A DNA stretch of 34,482 nt, taken from IMG/VR virus record IMGVR_UViG_3300050120_000326, positions 1 through 34,482 of that record. The stretch is one strand, 5' to 3'. A model generated the notes under the pieces. It had not been told where the DNA came from, did not search any database, and worked only from the letters and a program-made list of their open reading frames with translations. Of the stretch, positions 2,336 through 30,846 are shown in pieces. Numbering within the stretch: the first letter of the stretch is position 1; each line of letters opens with the position of its first letter. The translations under genes and the position numbers were made by a program. The DNA is from a virus.

Positions 2336-2536
2336 ATGGAATACGGAGACCGCATAATCGTCCGCGACGCCTTGGGGGCAGACCTGGAACGTCGCTTAAT
2401 TCGCGAAACGGACAAGACTGTTTATATCTGCACAGACGCCGAGCTATCAAGAGCTAGGAACGACAGAGCCGAACCGCTCGTGGTTGGCTTTAAAAAAAGC
2501 GCAATCGTTCGGCCCCGAACGCAGTCGCTGGGCTAG
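2336..2536 (+). CDS. Small hypothetical protein
   Basis: A 66-residue protein with mixed charged and beta-like segments (DRIIVRDALG, TVYICTDAEL, PLVVGFKKSAIV). The composition looks like a real folded protein. It is transcribed away from the DUF5343-like gene and shares the repeated GAGTAGCG region. No Shine-Dalgarno is evident before the ATG; a weak TATCCT (2323-2328) stands about where a -10 for a leaderless start would be. No family is recognised. Confidence 0.5.
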   Translation: MEYGDRIIVRDALGADLERRLIRETDKTVYICTDAELSRARNDRAEPLVVGFKKSAIVRPRTQSLG

Positions 2537-2633
2537 ATTTTCCTGGGCGCGTTTTCTCCGGCTTAGGCGATTTACTAGAGTGTGCCCGAAGTGGGGAAGT
2601 ACTGGTACAACCGTACCTCGTGCAAACGCTCCA
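2537..2633. other. Convergent intergenic region with a short inverted repeat
   Basis: This gap separates the plus-strand gene ending at 2536 from the 3' end of the serine integrase. It contains GGTAC (2604-2608) and GTACC (2613-2617) as an inverted repeat. Being next to a serine integrase gene, it is one place to look for the phage attachment site, but nothing here proves that. Confidence 0.3.
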
Positions 2634-4106
2634 TCAAGCCAGTTCGGCGGTTTTCGGCTGTGCTCGGCGCCGCGCCGTTGGATCTCTTACCCATCGAATC
2701 GTAAGGGTTCCATCGGCCTCGACGCATAGCCCGCCCAGGTCAAGCGAGACTGCCCGCGCGAGGGCGCGTTGCTCCTCGCTGGTGGCTTCCCCGTAGAGCG
2801 CGTGAGCTTTCGCGATGAGCGCTTCCGTGTCGGTCACGCGCCGCACCGCGGCCATTGCGCGCGCCCGCTGCGCCTCGAGTTCGGCAACTTTGGCGATCTC
2901 ATCGTCGCGGCGGCGCGCGAGGGCGTCTAGGCGATCCTGGACGTCTTCATCGCGGACCTTGCCCTCGTTGTTCATCTCCCAGACCCGTTCGCGCTGCCGG
3001 TTCAAGGACGCGACGTTCGCGGATGCCTCCGTGATGGCCCGATCGATCAACGCAGGAGAGGCGCCATGCACCCTCGCTGCGGCCTCGGCGATGAGGTGCG
3101 GTTTGTCTTTCAGTTCGGCGAGCAGCGCGACGAATTGCTGCTCGACTTTCTCCGCCCGGACCAGCCGGACACTGTTGTCATGATTCCAGCGTGAGTAGCA
3201 GCCGTAGTAGCGGAACCGGCCGGACTTGCCGGCGACCTTTCCCATAACGGCCCCACCGCAATAGCACCGCACGGCGCCAGTGAGCGGCCAAGAATGGACC
3301 GCCTGCGCGGACTGCCGGGGAAGGCGATCGCTGACGAGTTGAGCCCGATGGAATGTCACCTCGTCGATGACGAGCGGGACGTACGTGCGCAATTCCAGCA
3401 TGTCGCGGACGCGACGCGGCAGCCAGTGCACGGCGCGTTCCCCGTCTTTGAAACGATAAGGCGGTGCGATTGGAGCGACGCGCCTGGCGATCGAGGTGTA
3501 GCCGTGGCCGTCAATGCGGAGCTGGAAAACCATGCGCACGATCTCGGCTTGGTCCTCGGCGACGACGTCGCGGCCGTCGGGACCGAATGCGAGCCCGTAG
3601 GGTCGACGGTTGCCGATCGCGAGGCCGGCTGCGCGCTTGCGGCGATAGATCGCCCTTGCCTTGTCCACGCGCACTTCGTTTTCGAAGGCCGCAGTTGTGG
3701 CGCGCACCGCGGCGATCAACTGATCCATCGCCGAGTCAAGCTTGAGTTCGCCGTCGTTGCGGGTCCATATCCGAACGCCGAGGTCGATCAATTCATGCTG
3801 CGCGATTTGCGACTCAGCGATGCGCCCGCGGCCGATGCGGTCAGCGCGGATCATCAAGAGCCAACCTGGCCGCGCGGCAGCGTCGAGCTTTCGCAGCTCG
3901 CCGACCATCTCACGCAAGAGTCGCCGCGGGCCGTCCTTGCCGGATGAAACGCCCTCGAAGACCCGATCGAGTGTCCAGCCCTTCGCTTTGGCCGTTTCTT
4001 CAGCCCAGGCGCGCTGATGCGCGAGCGACTCGGCCTGAATATCAGAACTCACGACGAGCAGTGCCCAAGCGTTCATTGCGGAGGCACCGGTGCCAACACG
4101 AGGCAC
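2634..4106 (-). CDS. Large serine recombinase (phage integrase)
   Basis: A 490-residue serine integrase that would catalyse phage integration and excision. The GTG at 4106 has GAGGGGG about ten bases upstream; an ATG ten codons in is an alternative. The N-terminal resolvase domain (about residues 14-160) shows the nucleophile region VVSSDIQAESL (Ser20), GPRRLL, and ADRIGRGR (Asp-Arg-x-x-Arg). A recombinase domain (RPYGLAF onward) follows, then a zinc ribbon (CYCGGAVMGK, then YYGCYSRW), and a long coiled coil with RQRERVWEMNNEG. Length and order fit the family. One oddity is that the usual YxRVS motif reads LLVVS, so the conserved Arg before the nucleophile is Val. It lies between two intergenic gaps, with an SOS box upstream. 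Confidence 0.9.
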   Translation of the reverse strand: MPRVGTGASAMNAWALLVVSSDIQAESLAHQRAWAEETAKAKGWTLDRVFEGVSSGKDGPRRLLREMVGELRKLDAAARPGWLLMIRADRIGRGRIAESQIAQHELIDLGVRIWTRNDGELKLDSAMDQLIAAVRATTAAFENEVRVDKARAIYRRKRAAGLAIGNRRPYGLAFGPDGRDVVAEDQAEIVRMVFQLRIDGHGYTSIARRVAPIAPPYRFKDGERAVHWLPRRVRDMLELRTYVPLVIDEVTFHRAQLVSDRLPRQSAQAVHSWPLTGAVRCYCGGAVMGKVAGKSGRFRYYGCYSRWNHDNSVRLVRAEKVEQQFVALLAELKDKPHLIAEAAARVHGASPALIDRAITEASANVASLNRQRERVWEMNNEGKVRDEDVQDRLDALARRRDDEIAKVAELEAQRARAMAAVRRVTDTEALIAKAHALYGEATSEEQRALARAVSLDLGGLCVEADGTLTIRWVRDPTARRRAQPKTAELA

Positions 4107-4132
4107 ACGTGATCAATTCCCCCTCGACTAGG

Positions 4133-4146
4133 CGAACATTTGTTCG
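4133..4146. promoter_or_regulatory. LexA/DinR-type SOS box
   Basis: CGAAC-ATTT-GTTCG is a perfect palindrome in its arms and matches the Gram-positive/actinobacterial LexA box (CGAAC-N4-GTTCG). It lies 27 bases upstream of the integrase GTG on the minus strand, as an operator for that gene would. No LexA gene is in the window. Confidence 0.65.
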
Positions 4147-4206
4147 ATACGATCCGAGCGAAGGGGTTGAATGTACGCACGCTTGTCCTCCTGGTCAGCT
4201 AACGTA

Positions 4207-4266
4207 AGGCGCGTCCGCCGGGACGCCGATTCTTAAATTTAGTAGACGGCCATGCTGTTATGGCCG
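4207..4266. other. Two hairpins between integrase and repressor
   Basis: GGCG-GTCC pairs with GGAC-GCC (about 4208-4227, one bulged base), and CGGCCAT (4247-4253) pairs perfectly with ATGGCCG (4260-4266), followed by a T-rich stretch. The 4107-4328 interval has no convincing gene. The hairpins could be terminators separating integrase and repressor units, or part of an attachment site. Confidence 0.35.
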
Positions 4267-4328
4267 AGGAATTTTCTGCGAGAAGGTGTCGTTGATGAGA
4301 GAGCCGCTGCCCCTGCCCGATGACTTAG

Positions 4329-4739
4329 CTATGCTCCGGGTGGCTGGCGAAGAGAACCTATATCGATGCCGTGCGCTTCGAGAACGGCTAGAAGCCGCAT
4401 ATTCCATTCCGCCTGCGCCTCGAGTTCTCGCGAAAGCTCAACGACCGCATTTGGTAGCGCTGTCGGGCGGTCGCGCGCCGGCGGCGTAGCTCCGGACATT
4501 AGTTCGTCGAGTGACAAGCTGAGCGCATTGGCCACGGCCATGACGAGTCCGATCGCTGGTTCTCGCTTCCCGGCCTCGACCTTCTGCAAGGTCGGCTGAA
4601 GAATACCAGCTGCTTCCGCGAGCTCGACCTGAGACCAGCCCAACTTTGCGCGGGCCTCTTTTATTCGTTCGCCGACGCTGGTATCACGCTCGCGTCGGCG
4701 TCGCTGCGTCGCCACCACTGATGCTTTGCTAAAAGTCAT
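4329..4739 (-). CDS. XRE-family HTH repressor (CI-like)
   Basis: I chose the ATG at 4739 because a start further upstream would run the coding sequence through the operator pair, giving 136 residues. The N-terminus is basic. An XRE/Cro-CI helix-turn-helix follows: GERIKEARAKLGWSQVELAE, GILQPTLQKVEAGKREP, then ALSLSLDELM. The C-terminal third is helical (VELSRELEAQAEWNMRLLAVLEAHG) and may dimerise. There is no LexA-like autocleavage domain. It is transcribed divergently from the Cro-like gene across twin operators, the usual arrangement of a lysogeny repressor. Confidence 0.85.
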   Translation of the reverse strand: MTFSKASVVATQRRRRERDTSVGERIKEARAKLGWSQVELAEAAGILQPTLQKVEAGKREPAIGLVMAVANALSLSLDELMSGATPPARDRPTALPNAVVELSRELEAQAEWNMRLLAVLEAHGIDIGSLRQPPGA

Positions 4740-4749
4740 CGCATGCCTT

Positions 4750-4788
4750 AAGCCAAAAGGCTTGACATCGGGATAAGCCTTTTGGCAT
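4750..4788. promoter_or_regulatory. Twin operators of the lysis/lysogeny switch
   Basis: AAGCCAAAAGGCTT (4750-4763) is a perfect 14-base inverted repeat. A second copy, AAGCCTTTTGGCAT (4775-4788), is its reverse complement with one mismatch; the centres are 25 bases apart. The first touches the -35 and the second covers the spacer and -10 of the plus-strand promoter, so a bound repressor would shut it off. Both divergent HTH proteins are candidate ligands. Confidence 0.8.
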
Positions 4789-4791
4789 AAT
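4762..4791 (+). promoter_or_regulatory. Early promoter with leaderless start
   Basis: TTGACA (4762-4767) and CATAAT (4786-4791) are 18 bases apart. The predicted start of transcription, about seven bases after the -10, coincides with the ATG at 4798, and no Shine-Dalgarno fits in between. Confidence 0.75.
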
Positions 4792-4797
4792 TGCGCC

Positions 4798-5013
4798 ATG
4801 GCTAAAACGCTTCAGGAACATCGGGCATCGGCGGGCTGGTCGCAGGCGTGTCTCGCGCGGAAAAGCGGCGTGCATTCGATCTCGATCAGCAAGTACGAAC
4901 GCGGCGTGACGGATCCGTCCTCGCGGAACCTGCGTCGCATCGCTGATGCCCTCGGCGTCCGGGTCGACGACATCGCGTTGCCACACAACGCGAATGACCA
5001 GGCCGTCGCGTAG
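4798..5013 (+). CDS. Cro-like XRE-family HTH protein
   Basis: A 71-residue single-domain DNA-binding protein with a complete XRE fold: LQEHRASAGWSQACLARKSG, then HSISISKYERGVTDPSSRNL and the closing LGVRVDDIAL. It is the first gene of the long early operon, and its ATG sits at the predicted transcription start, so the mRNA is probably leaderless. By position opposite the repressor it is the likely Cro analogue, binding the shared twin operators. The next gene begins immediately after its TAG. Confidence 0.85.
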   Translation: MAKTLQEHRASAGWSQACLARKSGVHSISISKYERGVTDPSSRNLRRIADALGVRVDDIALPHNANDQAVA

Positions 5014-5220
5014 ATGACATCGTTACGTCGCGACCACCGATTCGCGAAGGCGCTGACGCGCTCGATGAAGCGCACCGGCAAAAGCTCCGCCGACCTGGCG
5101 CGCGATCTCAACGTTGGTCGCACGACGGTATACGGCTGGCTTTCGGGCTCGGAACCGACGGACGCCAACTTCGATAAGCTGGTGTTCCTGTTCCCCGAAC
5201 TCGCGGAGTTCGCTCGATGA
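5014..5220 (+). CDS. Small HTH protein
   Basis: A 68-residue protein with a helix-turn-helix in KSSADLARDLNVGRTTVYGWLSG followed by a helix with FDKLVFLFPEL. The N-terminus is basic (RRDHRFAKALTRSMKRTG). It abuts the Cro-like gene with no gap. It is probably a second early DNA-binding regulator (CII-like by place, not by sequence). Confidence 0.75.
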   Translation: MTSLRRDHRFAKALTRSMKRTGKSSADLARDLNVGRTTVYGWLSGSEPTDANFDKLVFLFPELAEFAR

Positions 5221-5285
5221 CCATGGACCGCTACCATACCCTGCGCCCGTCGGCTTCATGCGTTACTGCACCCGGTGTCGCTTGA
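5217..5285 (+). CDS. Mini-ORF linking two early genes
   Basis: A 22-codon frame (MTMDRYHTLRP...) whose ATG overlaps the preceding TGA (ATGA) and whose TGA overlaps the next ATG (TGATG). The peptide itself looks unremarkable. The exact double overlap suggests it exists to carry ribosomes to the next gene. Confidence 0.35.
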   Translation: MTMDRYHTLRPSASCVTAPGVA

Positions 5286-5509
5286 TGGCCCGCCCGAAAG
5301 CCGTCGTCACCGCCAAGATCGAGGCGAATATGGGCCTCATCGCCCGCGCTCAAGAGCGTGAAGCCGCGATGGCGCTGATTCAACGCGCGACCGGTGAGCT
5401 GTTCCACCGCCTTGGCCTCATGCGCGCCGAGGAAATGAACTTCATCGAAGCCGTGCGCGCCGAAAACTGCGCGCTCGAATCCGGCGCATCACTCCGGGTC
5501 GCAGCCTAA
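5285..5509 (+). CDS. Hypothetical helical protein
   Basis: A 74-residue protein starting MARPKAVVTAK from the ATG that overlaps the mini-ORF stop. An in-frame ATG at 5258 would add a YCTRC segment and cannot be excluded. The rest is predicted helical and charged (KIEANMGLIARAQEREAAMALIQ...). No family is recognised. It lies in the early operon right after the regulators. Confidence 0.6.
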   Translation: MARPKAVVTAKIEANMGLIARAQEREAAMALIQRATGELFHRLGLMRAEEMNFIEAVRAENCALESGASLRVAA

Positions 5510-5620
5510 ATGGAGCCACTCATCGACATGACGCGCACGGTCGCCGTGCTCGTCGCGATCGAGGATCAGATTGAAGCCGACCGCATCGCCGCGGAAGCCG
5601 CGCAAGAAGCAGCGGCATGA
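5510..5620 (+). CDS. Very small acidic protein
   Basis: 36 codons directly after the preceding TAA. It reads as one amphipathic helix rich in Ala, Glu and Asp (MEPLIDMTRTVAVLV..., ending AAEAAQEAAA). Composition matches the neighbours, but the function is unknown. Confidence 0.45.
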   Translation: MEPLIDMTRTVAVLVAIEDQIEADRIAAEAAQEAAA

Positions 5621-5718
5621 CGCCTCATCAACTTTCCGCCGTCTCGGCGGAAGATCATCAACAAAAGCTGAGCCCGCGAACGGCTGACACCGTCGCAGGC
5701 TCCTTAGGAGAACCGTGC

Positions 5719-6033
5719 ATGAACACGTCCCTCGACTCGAACGATACCACATTCCCCGTCGCTGTGGATACCGGCGTCTATCTTGGCCGGTCGCTGCATC
5801 CCGGCTACATCGACCTTCCGTTTGTCACCGAAGAGATTTTCAAAGAGGGCCGGCGCGACTTCGGTCGCTCGATCGCCGTCGCCGAACTTGACGAATCGCA
5901 ACTGACCGAACTCGAAAACGAGCTCGTCGATTACGAACGCGACGTACGGCAGCAAATCGCGCGGTTGCGTAGCGAAATCGAGCAGCGCGGAGACGCGCTT
6001 ACGGGCCAGCTCTCTTTTGGCATCGCGGCATGA
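5719..6033 (+). CDS. Hypothetical protein with C-terminal coiled coil
   Basis: 104 residues from the ATG at 5719, which has TAGGAG eight bases upstream. An in-frame ATG at 5617 overlapping the previous stop would give 138 residues with a poorly folded N-terminus. The first half is beta-like (TGVYLGRSLHPGYIDLPFV); the second is a heptad-like helix (LTELENELVDYERDVRQQIA). The next gene overlaps its stop. Unknown family. Confidence 0.6.
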   Translation: MNTSLDSNDTTFPVAVDTGVYLGRSLHPGYIDLPFVTEEIFKEGRRDFGRSIAVAELDESQLTELENELVDYERDVRQQIARLRSEIEQRGDALTGQLSFGIAA

Positions 6034-6539
6034 CCGCGGTCGCACAGACCGAAGCCGTCGCGCCGACGCTCGAAGACCTCTCGCTCGAAGAAGCACTCGA
6101 CAATCTCGCGGTGATCGACGGCTTCATCAAATCGAAGCAACCGGAACTCGACGCGGCGCGCGCCGCAGCGCAGGACTTGCGCACGATCATCAAGCTCCGC
6201 ATGGAAGAACGTAAGGCCACGCGTTTCGAGCGCGGCGGCTGGCGCAGCCGCTTCACGATGGTGAAGCAGGGCGCCGCATCACTCAACATGCCGACCGAGT
6301 TGCGCGCGTTCTTGATTTCGACGGGTGAAATTCCGTTGAAAGAGATCGACGACGCTCTTCCTATCGTCATCGCGCCGCCGATCGTCAAAGGCGACTTGCG
6401 CAAGGTCCGCAAGCTGGCCGATTACGGAGGCGACTGCAAAAAAGCCGTTGAGGCCCACATTTTTGAGCCGCGCCAAGTCGAGCAACTCATCATCGAGCCC
6501 GTCGAAATCGACGTGACGCCAAAGACCGAGGCGGCGTAA
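6030..6539 (+). CDS. Hypothetical early protein, Gp157/Gam-like in outline
   Basis: 169 residues. A long N-terminal helix with LEEALDNLAVIDGFIKSKQP and LRTIIKLRMEERK precedes a compact domain with FTMVKQGAASLNMP and IPLKEIDDALPIVIAPPI, and an acidic end. Phage proteins with an N-terminal coiled coil just upstream of recombination genes are often Gam- or Gp157-like, but I see no decisive motif. Joined to both neighbours by ATGA or TAATG overlaps. Confidence 0.65.
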   Translation: MTAVAQTEAVAPTLEDLSLEEALDNLAVIDGFIKSKQPELDAARAAAQDLRTIIKLRMEERKATRFERGGWRSRFTMVKQGAASLNMPTELRAFLISTGEIPLKEIDDALPIVIAPPIVKGDLRKVRKLADYGGDCKKAVEAHIFEPRQVEQLIIEPVEIDVTPKTEAA

Positions 6540-12038: not shown

Positions 12039-12373
12039 GCAAGCCGTCCGCCGGCTCGCGCTGGCATCTAGCGGTATTCGAACGCGACGGCTTCCAGTGC
12101 CGCGCAGAGCATCACGATCGTCGATGCAATAGCCGCCCGTCGGAAGCGCATCACATCGTCTACAAAGTTCATCTTATCGACGCGACCACGTGGCTGCTCG
12201 AAAACGGAATCGCGCTGAGTGAGCACTGTCACGCGCTCGCGCATCGCACACATAACGCCAACATATCCGAAGCCCGCCTTATAGCGGCGGTGGACGCGGT
12301 GAACGTCGTGCAAGGCGACGATCCCGCATTCCGACGCCCTTACTTTTGTTCCAAAGGATTTGCCACACTATGA
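12029..12373 (+). CDS. HNH-endonuclease-like protein
   Basis: 114 residues. The HNH pattern is visible as VFERDGFQCRAEHHD, then PSEAHHIVYK, then GIALSEHCHALAHRTHN: a Cys, the central His-His pair, and a final His/Asn-containing helix. The metal-binding Cys set is incomplete (one C before the HH, one in EHC), so it could be a divergent HNH. It lies between replication genes and the tyrosine recombinase rather than beside terminase, so an early DNA-processing role is likelier than packaging. Confidence 0.7.
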   Translation: MALSKPSAGSRWHLAVFERDGFQCRAEHHDRRCNSRPSEAHHIVYKVHLIDATTWLLENGIALSEHCHALAHRTHNANISEARLIAAVDAVNVVQGDDPAFRRPYFCSKGFATL

Positions 12374-12414
12374 CTGCGTTTGCAGAAAACTTACGCGCGA
12401 AGTGCGCTCGATGA
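12370..12414 (+). CDS. Mini-ORF upstream of the tyrosine recombinase
   Basis: 14 codons (MTAFAENLRAKCAR) starting in the HNH gene stop (ATGA) and ending across the recombinase ATG (ATGA). No Shine-Dalgarno precedes the recombinase start, so ribosomes may reach it through this frame. Confidence 0.35.
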   Translation: MTAFAENLRAKCAR

Positions 12415-13310
12415 TCTACGCAGACCCGCTAATCTCAGACTTCGTGGCTGATCTCTTACGCAAGAACCGCTCGCCGCGGTCGCAAGAAGCGTACGCCCGC
12501 GATCTGAGCATGTTCACGCGCTTTCTCGGCGCGCCGATCAAAGATGCAACCCGTCAGGACATCAATCGTTATACGCTCTATCTGTTGACGGAGCGGAAGT
12601 ACAAGGTCGTGACGGCTCGGCGAAATCTCTCCACGCTGCGCACGTTCTTCAAGTACCTGCGCCGCGAGGGACTGCGCGACGGCAACCCGGCCGAGGATGT
12701 CGAGCTCCCGAAACCGGAGCAGCGCAAGCCAAAGGTGCTGCGCGTCAACGAGGTTGTCAGCATGCTCGGCGCGGACCGTGGCGGCTATCACGCTGTCCGC
12801 GATCGCGCCATCCTCGAGCTGCTTTACGGTAGCGGAATCCGTCGCGCTGAAGTTGCGAACCTGACTCTTGATAGCCTCGACTTCTTGCAACGCACGGCGA
12901 TCGTAAACGGCAAGGGCAACAAGCGTCGCATGGTTCCGCTTACCGAAGCCTCGATCTCGGCGATGCAGTTGTATCTGCACGTTCGGCCGGCCGCTGAGGA
13001 TGACGCGTTCTTTCTCAGTAATCGGAATACGAAACTGGGATTGCGCCAGGTCTGGAAGATCGTCAAGGACTACGCGGTCGCCGGCGGCGTGCCGCGCGCT
13101 TCGACCCATGCGATGCGTCATTCATTTGCTACGCACTTCATCGAGGGCGGCGGCGACCTATCGTCTCTTCAGCGGCTTCTCGGTCACGCGAGCATTGCGA
13201 CCACGCAAATCTACATTGACCAGTCCGTGGAGCATCTTCGGAAGCAATTCACGATCGGAAGCCTACGCGATAAACCCGAGTTCGCTGAAGCACTGCGCGG
13301 TGCAAAGTGA
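12411..13310 (+). CDS. XerC/D-like tyrosine recombinase
   Basis: 299 residues. The N-terminal SAM-like core-binding domain (about 5-95; SPRSQEAYARDLSMFTRFLG) and the catalytic domain carry all the expected residues: Arg144 (GSGIRRAEV), Lys168 (NGKGNKRR), His233-x-x-Arg236 (THAMRHSF), His259 (LLGHASIATT) and Tyr268 (QIYID). Length and motifs match chromosomal XerC/XerD more than phage integrases. It is the last gene of the tight early chain and has no minus-strand neighbour or attachment site nearby. Since the phage has a serine integrase, this enzyme may resolve multimers or mediate another rearrangement. Confidence 0.9.
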   Translation: MIYADPLISDFVADLLRKNRSPRSQEAYARDLSMFTRFLGAPIKDATRQDINRYTLYLLTERKYKVVTARRNLSTLRTFFKYLRREGLRDGNPAEDVELPKPEQRKPKVLRVNEVVSMLGADRGGYHAVRDRAILELLYGSGIRRAEVANLTLDSLDFLQRTAIVNGKGNKRRMVPLTEASISAMQLYLHVRPAAEDDAFFLSNRNTKLGLRQVWKIVKDYAVAGGVPRASTHAMRHSFATHFIEGGGDLSSLQRLLGHASIATTQIYIDQSVEHLRKQFTIGSLRDKPEFAEALRGAK

Positions 13311-26308: not shown

Positions 26309-27124
26309 GTGAGTTCACCGTTCATGCCGTCATTCGGTACGCTGGTCGGCATCAATCGTGCGGTGCAAATCGGACGCGGCGTAGCGTCCGCGCTGCTCGG
26401 TCAGACCTACGATATTCGCCGGCTGGACAACGCGACAAACGGGAGCATCTCCAACAACACGCCGATCTATCCATCGTTCCCGGCCAGCATCAAGCGCGTT
26501 GCAAAAACCAAAGCCGAGAACGAGATCTTCAACCTGCTCGCGTTCGAAGCGACGTGCAACAATCTCGATCTAGAGATCGGCGACCTGTGCACGGAGACGG
26601 GATTCGGCGAAGACGGCGGCGTGTTCTACGTGGCGCAGAAACGCCCGCTGCGCGAGACGATCTGGATCCGTGCGGAGTCGGCCATCAACATCACGCGCCC
26701 AATCCCCACCGCCGGTGCGGTCTCTCAGCAACCGACATCGGGATGGCAAGTCGCACCGAGCGGCACGTGGTCCGGCATTGCGAAGAACACCGAAGAAGTT
26801 CTTACGCTCACCAACGGGCTCTACTCGTTCTCAACGGCGCCCGGCGCATCACCCGCGGTCGTGTACGCTGGCCTTCAGCCGCCGAAAACGATGCTCAAGG
26901 AAACACAGAACCCGAAGATTCCCGGCGTCGGAAAGCTCGCAACGCTCCTCGACATCGAGACGTTCGTCATCTATCTTCCGCTTCTGCCGGGCGAGGAAGT
27001 GTCGGAGTACGATCGGATCGCGTTCTCGCAGATCGGCGATCGGTACGAAGTCCACCAAGTCTTCACGACGGCAAAGACCGGTATCGCCGGTTACATCATC
27101 GTGGCTGCAAAGCTCCCGAACTGA
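26309..27124 (+). CDS. Head completion/neck protein
   Basis: 271 residues from a GTG with TAGGAGG upstream. N-terminal GTLVGINRAVQIGRGVASAL, then beta-rich sequence with LGQTYDIRRLDNATNGSISN, LEIGDLCTETGFGED, and FVIYLPLLPGEEVSEYDRI; the last part, DRYEVHQVFTTAKTG, is typical of stopper-type proteins that measure 'IGDRYEV'. Stopper or neck fibre is likely; no strict family call. Confidence 0.6.
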   Translation: MSSPFMPSFGTLVGINRAVQIGRGVASALLGQTYDIRRLDNATNGSISNNTPIYPSFPASIKRVAKTKAENEIFNLLAFEATCNNLDLEIGDLCTETGFGEDGGVFYVAQKRPLRETIWIRAESAINITRPIPTAGAVSQQPTSGWQVAPSGTWSGIAKNTEEVLTLTNGLYSFSTAPGASPAVVYAGLQPPKTMLKETQNPKIPGVGKLATLLDIETFVIYLPLLPGEEVSEYDRIAFSQIGDRYEVHQVFTTAKTGIAGYIIVAAKLPN

Positions 27125-27372
27125 TGCTGTTCGAAGAAGATCCCGCACCACGGCGCGCGCGGACGGATACGCATCGCCGTCAATGGCGTCAACTGCGCGA
27201 ATTCATCGTCGTACGCTATACGGATGACTCTCGCAAGCGCGAGACGCGCTCGGCCCGTCGCCCCATGGTGTGTGACTTTCTCGCTACGAGTTGCGGACGA
27301 CGCAACGGTTTAGTTCGAGCAACGGTCAGCCGAGCGGCCCTAACGGCTGCGCGTTTCCTTATCGACGAGTAG
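27124..27372 (+). CDS. Small basic hypothetical protein
   Basis: 82 residues, start overlapping the previous TGA (TGATG). Very Arg-rich (PRRARTDTHRRQWRQLREF, KRETRSARRPMVCDF). No family recognised. It directly precedes the receiver-domain gene, whose AGGAG lies just past its stop, so the two may be expressed together. Confidence 0.5.
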   Translation: MLFEEDPAPRRARTDTHRRQWRQLREFIVVRYTDDSRKRETRSARRPMVCDFLATSCGRRNGLVRATVSRAALTAARFLIDE

Positions 27373-27382
27373 GAGCATAGCG

Positions 27383-27745
27383 GTGGGCCTCAAGTTCGTG
27401 ATCGCCGACGACGGCTTGATTCAGCGCGACCGCCTGCGCCAGTACCTCATCACCGCAGGGCACGAGGTTGTGGGCGTTGCCGACAACGGCCGCATTGCTG
27501 TGGACCTGTGCCGCCAGTACCACCCGGATGCCGTCATCCTCGACATTGTGATGCCGGTGATGACCGGCGACGCCGCAGCGCTCGTGATCTTCGGCGAAAA
27601 ACTCGCTACGTACGTCTTCGTCGCATCGCTCAGTACGCAGGAAGCCATCGTCGGCAACCTCCGCGCTTTGGGTGCGCGCGTCATCTCCAAGCCGTATCGC
27701 CGGGAGCAGCTCCTCGCGCAAATCCACGTAGCGATGATTCCGTGA
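27383..27745 (+). CDS. Stand-alone CheY-like response-regulator receiver
   Basis: 120 residues, GTG start with AGGAG about eight bases upstream. A complete receiver (REC) domain: acidic pair Asp9-Asp10 (FVIADDG), phospho-acceptor Asp54 (AVILDIVMP), Ser82 (VFVASLS) in the Thr/Ser switch position, and Lys103-Pro (VISKPY), with the alpha/beta order of CheY. The closest pattern I know is the receiver of ANTAR-type regulators, but no output domain follows; the next gene starts within its stop. It lies between neck and tail genes. No histidine kinase is in the window, so a host kinase or a small phosphodonor would have to act. Function in a virion operon is unknown. Confidence 0.88.
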   Translation: MGLKFVIADDGLIQRDRLRQYLITAGHEVVGVADNGRIAVDLCRQYHPDAVILDIVMPVMTGDAAALVIFGEKLATYVFVASLSTQEAIVGNLRALGARVISKPYRREQLLAQIHVAMIP

Positions 27746-28641
27746 AGCCGCGCATTCAGGACGTCATCGAAACGATCATGGCGAACGTCGGCACCGCGCT
27801 CTCGGACGCGGCCGTTCCATCGTTCGGGCAGATCGTTGCGGGCCAGCCAATCGGCACGGCTCTCGTGCAAATCATGGGCCAAGCGACGGAACAAGGGCTC
27901 ATCTCGGTATTTCCACGGCCCGGCACGGCGAAAAACGTCACGCGCTACCCGATCGGTACGCAGATCGTGCTGTCGTCGAATCCGAACGTCCCGCTCATCG
28001 CCACCCTCACGCCAAGCGGCGGGCAGTGGACGATCGCGTTCACCGGATCGGTCGCGGCCGGCATCAACGTCCACACGTTCGTCGGGCCACCGCTCGTCGA
28101 TGCGTTCTTCCAGACGGCGACGGGTGACACGCTCACATCGGTTGCGACCAAGACCGCAGCGGCGATCAACGCGCTCGCCGGAACCGCAGCTGCAACCGCG
28201 TCCACCAACAGCGTCATCGTGACCGGCTCGCCACTGCTCATCTGCAACCTCGGCGAGACGGTGGGGACGATCGCGCGGCTCGTCAGTCGCATCGCTCAAA
28301 CGATGCAGGTCTCGATCTGGGTTCCCGATCCGCACGCAACGCCGCCCGCAATACCCGCGCCGTTGCGGTTTCTCATTGCTGACGCCATCGCGTCGTCGAT
28401 CGGAACGTCGGAAGCACGGTTTCTCGCGCTCTCCGACGGCACGCCGATGGACATCGACTACGCGACGGAGTTCCTGGACGACCAAGCGCAGTCGGATTAC
28501 TCCTTGTACGCCTACCACCTCGCGTTCCGCGTCGAGTACGACGTTCTTCGCTACGTCACCGCGACGACCATCGGCTCGGTCAAGGCGACGATCGCGCAAA
28601 ACACCGCCTCGCCTCTCACCATCTATTCCGGAGGGTCATGA
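27742..28641 (+). CDS. Tail-completion/neck-type virion protein with inserted domain
   Basis: 299 residues from a GTG that overlaps the receiver gene stop. N-terminal helices (IQDVIETIMANVGTALSDAA), a middle inserted module (about 65-170; VLSSNPNVPLIATLTPSGGQ, GDTLTSVATKTAAAINALAG), then a beta-rich end with FRVEYDVLRYVTATTIG. Position before the sheath fits a tail terminator or tail-head joining protein. Confidence 0.6.
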   Translation: MKPRIQDVIETIMANVGTALSDAAVPSFGQIVAGQPIGTALVQIMGQATEQGLISVFPRPGTAKNVTRYPIGTQIVLSSNPNVPLIATLTPSGGQWTIAFTGSVAAGINVHTFVGPPLVDAFFQTATGDTLTSVATKTAAAINALAGTAAATASTNSVIVTGSPLLICNLGETVGTIARLVSRIAQTMQVSIWVPDPHATPPAIPAPLRFLIADAIASSIGTSEARFLALSDGTPMDIDYATEFLDDQAQSDYSLYAYHLAFRVEYDVLRYVTATTIGSVKATIAQNTASPLTIYSGGS

Positions 28642-28893: not shown

Positions 28894-30846
28894 ATGATTA
28901 TCGGTGGAAACGTCGCCTCGGGAAGCATCGTCATTCCGGGTTCGTACGTCTCGGAACCCGCGCCGCAACCCGTTACCCCGCTCGGCCCGAACACCTCGCT
29001 CCTCGCGATCTCCGGCACGGGTTCGTACGGCGTGCCGAATACGCCGACGCCGGCATTCGATGCGGCCTCAGCGATCGCGGCGGTGGGCAACAACTCATCG
29101 CTCCCGCACTCGATCATCGCGGAAATCGTGAACGGCGCGCTGCCGCTATGCACGTCGTATTTACTCAACCGCGTTACGGACGGCACCGACGTCGCCGCCG
29201 TCGCGCCGCTGGCCGACAACACGGGCTTCGCCGCTGAATCGATCACGTTCACGGGCACCGGGGGCACGGGTCAGACCGCGACGGTCACGCTCGTCAACGG
29301 CAGCACGACCGTCGTCGTCGGGCCGTATACCATCGGCACATCCGCCACGCCGACCGCCGTCGCAAGCGCAGTCGCATCGCTCATCGCCGCCTCGGCTGCG
29401 GTCAACGGCGGAAACGCGTTCTTGCAAGCGCCGACCAGTTCGGCTGGCGCGATCTCGCTCTCGGCGCTCGCGTCGGGAACCGGCGGCAACGCGATCACGG
29501 TTGCCGTGGCGGTTACGAGCACCGGCATCACCGCCACCCCTAGCTCGGCGACCGCGATGACCGGCGGCCTCGCTCCGGGTTCCCTCGGGACGTTCGTCAA
29601 CGTCAGCACGGGATCGTATGCGAACAACACCGCAACCGCTCCGTCAGGCGTGCAGGCCACCTATAGCACGACCCCCGGATCGACATCGCCACTCGTCAAC
29701 GTGACGCTGTTCTTCCCGAATCAAAACCCCGTCGTCTATCAGAACATCGTCGCCTACGCGTCGAAGGGCGGCGGATTCAATGCTCCGGCGTTTCTCGCTA
29801 ACCTCGGCGCGGCGGTGAACACCGGGACGAACGCACAGCCGAAAAGCGCCTACTGGACCTTCGTCGCGGGTTCGTCCACCGCGCCGCCGCTGACGGGTGT
29901 CCTCCAAGGCGCAACGGGCGGCACGGACGGCGCCACCGGCGTCACGTCCGTAATGCTGATGGGCCAAGACGGCACGACCGGGCGCACGGGCGTCTACGCC
30001 TTCCGTAAGAAAATTCGCGGCGGGCAAGTCATCATCGCGCAGTTCACGGACTGCACGTTCGCGCAAGCGCTCGCGACGTTCTGTCAAGAAGAAGCGTGCA
30101 TCACGTCGATCGCGCTGGGCGGCGCCGGAACAACGCCGAGCCAAGCCGTCGCAACGTCGCAAGCGAACAGCGTCGCGAGCCGGTTCGTGTTCCAAGTGCT
30201 CGGCGAACCGTTCTACACGGATCCGTTCACTGGCGTCAATGGACTACAGTCGCCGCTCGGCTCCGCCGCCGGCACCATCGCATCGCTCAACCCGTGGCAG
30301 CCGCCGCTGAACAAGCCGCGCGGTGGCGGCCTCGCCATGACGGCGACGGAGTTCACGCTCGGTCAGTTCCCGGACGAGACGATCCTCCAATCGAACAACA
30401 TCGCGTACTTCAAGAAGAAGAACGGGCAGTTCGTCCTTTGGCAAGATCGCATGTCGGACGGTACCCCGGTCGCTGACACGCGCATGCTCAACTTCCTGGC
30501 GGTGCAGATCGAAGCGATCGGCGATAAGTACATCGGCGAGACGCAAAGCTCGGCCGGCCTCGCGACGAGTCCGACGACGCCGCTATCCGATGCGACGCGC
30601 GCCGCATACGTCAACGACATCAACAACCTGTTGCTGCCGATGGCGAACCCGGCAAACCCGCAAATCAGCCCCATCCTCCCCGGGCAGCCGAAGCCGTTCA
30701 GTGTTTCGCTGAGCAGCAACACGCCGACCACGGTTCAGCAGGGCTTTCTCATCGCCAGCATCTCGGTGCTCACGCTTAGCGGCATCCGCTACGCGCTCGC
30801 GGTTCTGCAAGTCGGCAGCACCGTGCAGGTCCAGCAAGCCGCGTAA
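28894..30846 (+). CDS. Tail sheath protein
   Basis: 650 residues, AAGGAG upstream. Starts IVIPGSYVSEPAPQPVTPLG, the usual N-terminal signature of contractile sheaths. Residues about 115-225 are a repeat-like inserted module (GQTATVTLVNGSTTVVVGPY, AVASAVASLIAASAAVNGGN). The C-terminal region has GLAMTATEFTLGQFPDETIL, FVLWQDRMSDGTPVADTRML and a last strand RYALAVLQVGSTVQV, which in sheaths joins the neighbouring subunit. Its presence makes this a contractile-tailed phage. Confidence 0.82.
   Translation: MIIGGNVASGSIVIPGSYVSEPAPQPVTPLGPNTSLLAISGTGSYGVPNTPTPAFDAASAIAAVGNNSSLPHSIIAEIVNGALPLCTSYLLNRVTDGTDVAAVAPLADNTGFAAESITFTGTGGTGQTATVTLVNGSTTVVVGPYTIGTSATPTAVASAVASLIAASAAVNGGNAFLQAPTSSAGAISLSALASGTGGNAITVAVAVTSTGITATPSSATAMTGGLAPGSLGTFVNVSTGSYANNTATAPSGVQATYSTTPGSTSPLVNVTLFFPNQNPVVYQNIVAYASKGGGFNAPAFLANLGAAVNTGTNAQPKSAYWTFVAGSSTAPPLTGVLQGATGGTDGATGVTSVMLMGQDGTTGRTGVYAFRKKIRGGQVIIAQFTDCTFAQALATFCQEEACITSIALGGAGTTPSQAVATSQANSVASRFVFQVLGEPFYTDPFTGVNGLQSPLGSAAGTIASLNPWQPPLNKPRGGGLAMTATEFTLGQFPDETILQSNNIAYFKKKNGQFVLWQDRMSDGTPVADTRMLNFLAVQIEAIGDKYIGETQSSAGLATSPTTPLSDATRAAYVNDINNLLLPMANPANPQISPILPGQPKPFSVSLSSNTPTTVQQGFLIASISVLTLSGIRYALAVLQVGSTVQVQQAA

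Follow-up and report, generated by a model that had tools for sequence, protein, structure and literature searches.

The window, by which we mean the whole 34,482-base virus sequence from IMG/VR analysed here, carries in its late neck operon what is, judged from sequence, a two-gene accessory cassette (27124-27372 and 27383-27745). The second gene encodes a protein that sequence and predicted structure together identify as a genuine single-domain response regulator of the CheY/Spo0F type, complete and potentially phosphorylatable, and the first encodes a small Arg-rich protein. We propose that this receiver, as one half of the cassette, works through protein contacts to affect host signalling late in infection, a reading to which we give about an even chance. 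The original prediction had announced a 120-residue, GTG-started receiver at this place, and the open reading frame corresponds to it exactly; it had taken the receiver as a unit of one gene, thereby overlooking the 82-aa gene immediately upstream (Table 1).

Table 1. Cassette genes, diagnostic codons and neighbouring genes, in window coordinates. L003 and L087 are related virus records and phiKX2 is a Komagataeibacter phage.
Feature	Position	Strand	Evidence or remark
Neck-region protein upstream of the cassette, 271 aa; from its position probably head closure	26309..27124	+	Homologues in L003 (37%) and L087 (47%); weakly related to phiKX2_340
Gene of the receiver's cassette partner, an Arg-rich protein of 82 aa; ATG overlaps TGA of preceding gene	27124..27372	+	L087 homologue in the same place, 46% identity
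AGGAG ribosome-binding site of receiver gene; overlaps stop of 82-aa gene	27371..27375	+	Sequence
Stand-alone receiver (single-domain response regulator), 120 aa, GTG start	27383..27745	+	Pfam 57.2 bits; model pLDDT 91.2; coding preference
Codons of acidic pair D9-D10 (Mg2+ site)	27407..27412	+	Alignment; kept in L087
Codon of phospho-acceptor D54	27542..27544	+	Invariant in 28 receivers; kept in L087
Codon of S82 (conserved T/S position)	27626..27628	+	Alignments with CheY and L087; model
Codon of V100, where receivers usually have an aromatic switch residue (F/Y)	27680..27682	+	Alignment
Codons of K103-P104	27689..27694	+	In L087 K is kept and P is replaced by T
Neck/tail-terminator-like protein downstream of the cassette, 299 aa; receiver stop overlaps its start	27742..28641	+	phrog_13532; phiKX2_350 by hhalign, 93% probability
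Tail sheath (contractile tail)	28894..30846	+	53% to L003 sheath; resembles annotated phiKX2 tail sheath

The receiver gene has a good ribosome-binding site, an AGGAG motif 7 nt ahead of its GTG, and its TGA (27743-27745) overlaps by 4 nt the GTG of the next virion gene at 27742, as had been predicted. In codon preference its reading frame resembles the structural genes (log-odds of 0.34 per codon, the other frames being negative) and a GC3 of 0.82, and this similarity of codon usage suggests that it is probably a long-resident gene. A chance open reading frame is rejected on the basis of the ribosome-binding site, the codon usage, the Pfam match and the existence of a counterpart in L087, and a decayed fragment, which the earlier reading had also dismissed, is rejected because the active site is complete here and is kept in L087 at 34% identity. 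The promoter search around the cassette returned a single weak promoter-like site, located upstream within the neighbouring gene, and the terminator-like sites (six, versus 2.3 in shuffled sequences) include no clear pair flanking it. The overlapping starts argue for expression of the cassette genes as part of the operon.

The protein matches the Pfam family PF00072 (Response_reg) with 57.2 bits, against a cut-off of 30.2 bits (E 2.2e-15), its residues 6-114 covering positions 2-110 of the 111 of the model. Since the domain extends over residues 6-114 of 120, an output domain is absent. The residues D9, D10, D54, P58, S82, K103 and P104 are all present according to a script check, and in an alignment with CheY of Thermotoga maritima S82 pairs with S82 of that protein. 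The assignment of S82 to the T/S position is also obtained from an ungapped alignment with the L087 receiver and from the model, in which it closes strand 4; in the MAFFT multiple alignment this position is taken in many rows by A81 rather than S82, a shift that arises because the window protein lacks one residue just ahead of strand 5. While the catalytic residues were thus correctly foreseen, one departure had been missed: the switch position, three residues before the Lys, is occupied by Val100, whereas 26 of the 28 aligned receivers have F or Y and L087 has F. An aromatic residue at this position is typical of receivers, without being obligatory. The AlphaFold model, built from an alignment of 28 receivers, has a mean pLDDT of 91.2 and shows strands and helices in the alternation of a (beta-alpha)5 fold, and the nearest solved folds are those of EutV, T. 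maritima CheY, Spo0A and Rv1626. The structure prediction of the isolated protein that had been suggested agrees with the sequence.

The late structural placement that had been predicted is borne out by the gene order, which reads rightward as terminase, portal, scaffold, major head protein, two neck-region proteins, the cassette, a neck/tail-terminator-like protein, sheath, tube and tape measure, the record being incomplete and stopping at the tape-measure gene. The names 'head closure' and 'tail terminator' used for the flanking genes are derived from position and weak profile matches only. The phage is probably temperate, since genes for a serine integrase, a XerD-like recombinase and a repressor-like regulator are present in the record. 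The two recombinases are on opposite strands, with the serine integrase at 2634-4106 (-) and the XerD-like tyrosine recombinase at 12360-13310 (+). It was also observed that the window sheath contains about 120 extra residues (112-231) that are missing from the L003 sheath. The histidine kinase domain HATPase_c (PF02518) was found neither in the window record (G000) nor in the records G001 and G002 of two relatives, all of which may be incomplete, and these three records accordingly show no complete two-component pair with a co-encoded cognate histidine kinase. The missing stretch beyond the tape-measure gene could hold a kinase.

Three relatives of the window phage were found. The record IMGVR_UViG_3300049214_000177 (L002/L003) is syntenic with the window, with 53% identity in the sheath and 70% in the tape-measure core. 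The Komagataeibacter phages phiKX1/2 have the same gene order, with 31% identity in the portal and head protein. The record IMGVR_UViG_3300048015_000157 (L087) has a tape-measure core at 68% and a sheath at 42%, its structural proteins ranging from 25 to 68% identity. At the same junction, L087 shows the succession of a neck gene, an 84-aa homologue (46%) of the 82-aa gene, a receiver and a neck gene. The L087 receiver, of 128 aa and 34% identity, keeps all of D, D, D, S and K (Pfam 44 bits), and its gene starts with GTG and overlaps the following gene. The search for the same locus in related phages therefore returned one positive case, with Asp54 kept, where absence from all relatives had been named as the outcome that would contradict the prediction. 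The genes homologous to the two flanking ones overlap directly in L003 and phiKX2, with nothing between them, and no PF00072 match is found in either record; the expectation of the same gene in relatives thus held for L087 and failed for L003 and phiKX2, which makes the gene accessory. The cassette has in this respect the character of a moron, that is, of accessory genes inserted between conserved genes, with the window and L087 bearing them and L003 and phiKX2 lacking them. The retention of the locus, the partner and the catalytic residues in the diverged L087 argues that the cassette is under selection. In the L002 record approximately four additional genes, one of them a 675-aa open reading frame rich in Ala, Ser and Thr, occupy positions 2520-6053, separating head-tail connector-like from neck genes. 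The cassette is known from two phages only, and all the key records are metagenomic contigs for which reads are not available. A chimeric assembly, which had been considered as an objection, is unlikely and was set aside, since the insertion is located exactly at a gene junction, the translational coupling is kept and two independent contigs have it.

The 82-aa protein matches nothing in Pfam or PHROGs; in particular, it corresponds to no nucleic-acid-binding family, and no ANTAR domain is recognised by Pfam. Its model is not confident (pLDDT 54). The protein is basic, with 19 K+R versus 11 D+E (15 versus 8 in the L087 homologue), and the codon usage of its gene is less typical than that of the receiver, yet the gene is conserved. 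Used as a query, it retrieves L087 only from IMG/VR and nothing from GenBank phages.

The history of the cassette can be approached through its neighbours. For most genes L003 is a nearer relative of the window than L087 is, as in the head protein (37 versus 30%), the sheath (53 versus 42%) and the tube (57 versus 36%); the gene that directly precedes the cassette shows the reverse, with 47% to L087 and 37% to L003, and the downstream gene is neutral. The simplest reading is that the upstream gene, the small gene and the receiver moved, or were kept, as one block, the alternative being that the cassette was lost in L003. A receiver tree, as had been recommended, was built; it gives long branches, and the placements of the window and L087 receivers, which are not joined, lack support. 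The very long branches of these two receivers explain the weakness of the tree, and the data neither establish nor reject a clade that unites them (p-AU 0.29). Replacement of one receiver by another at the same site is possible. We also considered that the two phages gained receivers independently at a favoured insertion site, a matter of origin that is compatible with any functional reading. The window receiver has 42% identity to some cellular receivers and 34% to that of L087, and the tree leaves the two apart, as independent gain would predict; given that the tree is weak, that the p-AU value does not reject their union and that both receivers follow the same homologous 82-aa gene, we regard this origin as improbable.

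Wider searches returned few relatives. No close relative of the receiver is found in IMG/VR, where its profile gave two matches, one in a host-like signalling cluster (L093) and the other a full-length Spo0A in a phage contig (L094). The latter (IMGVR_UViG_3300042922_001431, 4845-5672 (+)) has a receiver of 67.5 bits and a Spo0A_C domain of 31.5 bits and lies near integrase-like and serine recombinase genes, in contrast to a virome survey that reported only receiver-less spo0A (PMC10294663). Receivers occur in 28 records of GenBank phages, all except one under 60% identity, and most of these are faecal contigs lacking annotation or probable host DNA. The match in Pseudomonas phage Komp_PAO1_1 was discarded as probable host sequence; it is a NarL-type response regulator reading frame (PQ287647.1, L004, 6037-6618 (+)) antisense to an annotated hypothetical gene. 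The sheath profile matched none of 84,980 genomes, and the receiver retrieved from genomes generic receivers only, at 42% identity at best, so that no donor or host can be named. The tape-measure profile found nothing in 396 genomes of one phylum (centred on an Acidobacteria MAG) or in 398 of another (centred on a Burkholderiaceae MAG), which shows little.

The original prediction knew of no described case at this genomic place, which holds for the neck site; in phage tail modules, CheY-like genes have been described. The proteins gp30 of Alteromonas phage V22 and gp11 of A5 are CheY-like, are located in the host-recognition module 3' of the tail-fibre chaperone and have been proposed as class II auxiliary metabolic genes, and phage P24 is said to share this type of module (PMC7289586, PMC10579305). 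Like the window receiver, they are lone receivers (of 147-149 aa) among phage tail genes, and V22 gp30 matches Response_reg with 79 bits. They differ in belonging to a tail-fibre-chaperone module rather than the neck, with other neighbours; V22 gp30 and the window receiver have only ~28-31% identity, with no special kinship in the tree. Membership of the window receiver in the V22 group is therefore rejected on both location and kinship. Compared with the bacterial CheY, Spo0F and DivK type (PF00072), the window receiver has the same fold, length and active site, and is distinguished by its phage late operon, by the Val at the switch position and by the lack of a kinase in the searched phage records. 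EutV and Rv1626 (PdtaR) are among its nearest solved relatives in both sequence and fold; as the protein ends after the receiver, without a C-terminal ANTAR domain, and none is recognised in the partner, classification as an ANTAR response regulator is rejected. With the agrDBC genes of phiCDHM1, which comprise a phage kinase without a regulator (PMC3901668), and with the truncated spo0A of gut phages, which consists of DNA-binding domains without receivers (PMC10294663), the relation is one of reversal, the window phage having the receiver alone. Phrases such as 'phage-encoded response regulator' were found in none of 5.39 million open papers. What is new here is the neck location, the partner gene, the Val at the switch position and the evidence of selection; CheY-like genes in phage tail-fibre modules are known.

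We propose the following scheme for an action on host signalling. The receiver would be made late in infection alongside the virion proteins, D54 would be phosphorylated by a host kinase or a small phosphodonor, and the protein would then divert phosphate from a host relay, as a decoy or sink, or contact a host target. The lack of HATPase_c in the window record and in those of two relatives suggests that a host kinase or small phosphodonor would supply the phosphate, and the lack of an output domain implies action by contact. With Val100 instead of F/Y, normal output signalling may be weak, which fits a sink better than an activator; we infer a leaning towards the former. A precedent for phages interfering with host two-component systems exists in PIT4 of Pseudomonas phage LSL4, described as an early protein binding the histidine kinases of its host (PMC10714779). 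PIT4 and the window receiver share a proposed target level, the host two-component systems; PIT4 is described as early, and the abstract of that study mentions no receiver. The placement among virion genes, without a clear promoter of its own, also fits a virion or assembly protein. The confidence attached to each functional reading is a judgement, and the computed data decide neither for a host relay nor for a split regulator or an assembly role.

Other functions have to be weighed against this proposal. The receiver and the adjacent 82-aa Arg-rich protein could form a split regulator, in which the receiver would gate a partner acting on late expression or neck assembly, host phosphorylation thereby timing a phage step. 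Both genes are present or both absent in each of the four phages compared, the partner is basic, and EutV and Rv1626 are receivers that gate RNA-binding ANTAR domains; the partner's lack of a nucleic-acid-binding family and of a confident model, and the restriction of the cassette to two phages, render this reading unlikely. It is also unlikely that the receiver fold serves as a virion or neck-assembly factor for which phosphorylation is of little or no importance. Its position between neck genes, with overlapping starts and stops, is in agreement with such a role, as is the closer relation of the upstream gene to the cassette-bearing L087 than to L003, unlike most of the genome, which would be expected if the products interact or if the genes travel as one block; the full catalytic set is nonetheless kept in both phages, although the two receivers share 34% identity and have long branches, and relatives do without the cassette in building this neck and tail. 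A host gene, or moron, captured recently and without a selected phage function would account for the accessory distribution, and the neck cluster of this group, which seems to be an insertion hot spot, accepts other extra genes, such as four in L003. We consider this very improbable, as the gene occupies the same place beside the same partner, with its active site kept, in a phage whose structural proteins are only 25-68% identical, its codon usage is that of the phage's structural genes and no close host relative was found (42% at best).

The receiver is thus, as far as sequence comparison indicates, a kept and probably working part rather than debris. Phages carry kinases and DNA-binding regulators, and no established function was found in the literature for a phage-borne lone receiver. 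It is quite improbable, in our estimation, that the receiver and its partner constitute a phage-made, phosphorylation-gated switch through which the host's signalling state, or its energy state by way of a small phosphodonor, controls neck assembly or late expression; if this were true, virion completion itself would be tied to a host two-component signal. The persistence of the locus, the partner gene and all catalytic residues across a large divergence provides a defined two-gene cassette together with a natural empty-site control, with which it becomes testable whether phages late in infection may tap host phosphorelays, or whether phosphorylation may take part in virion assembly.
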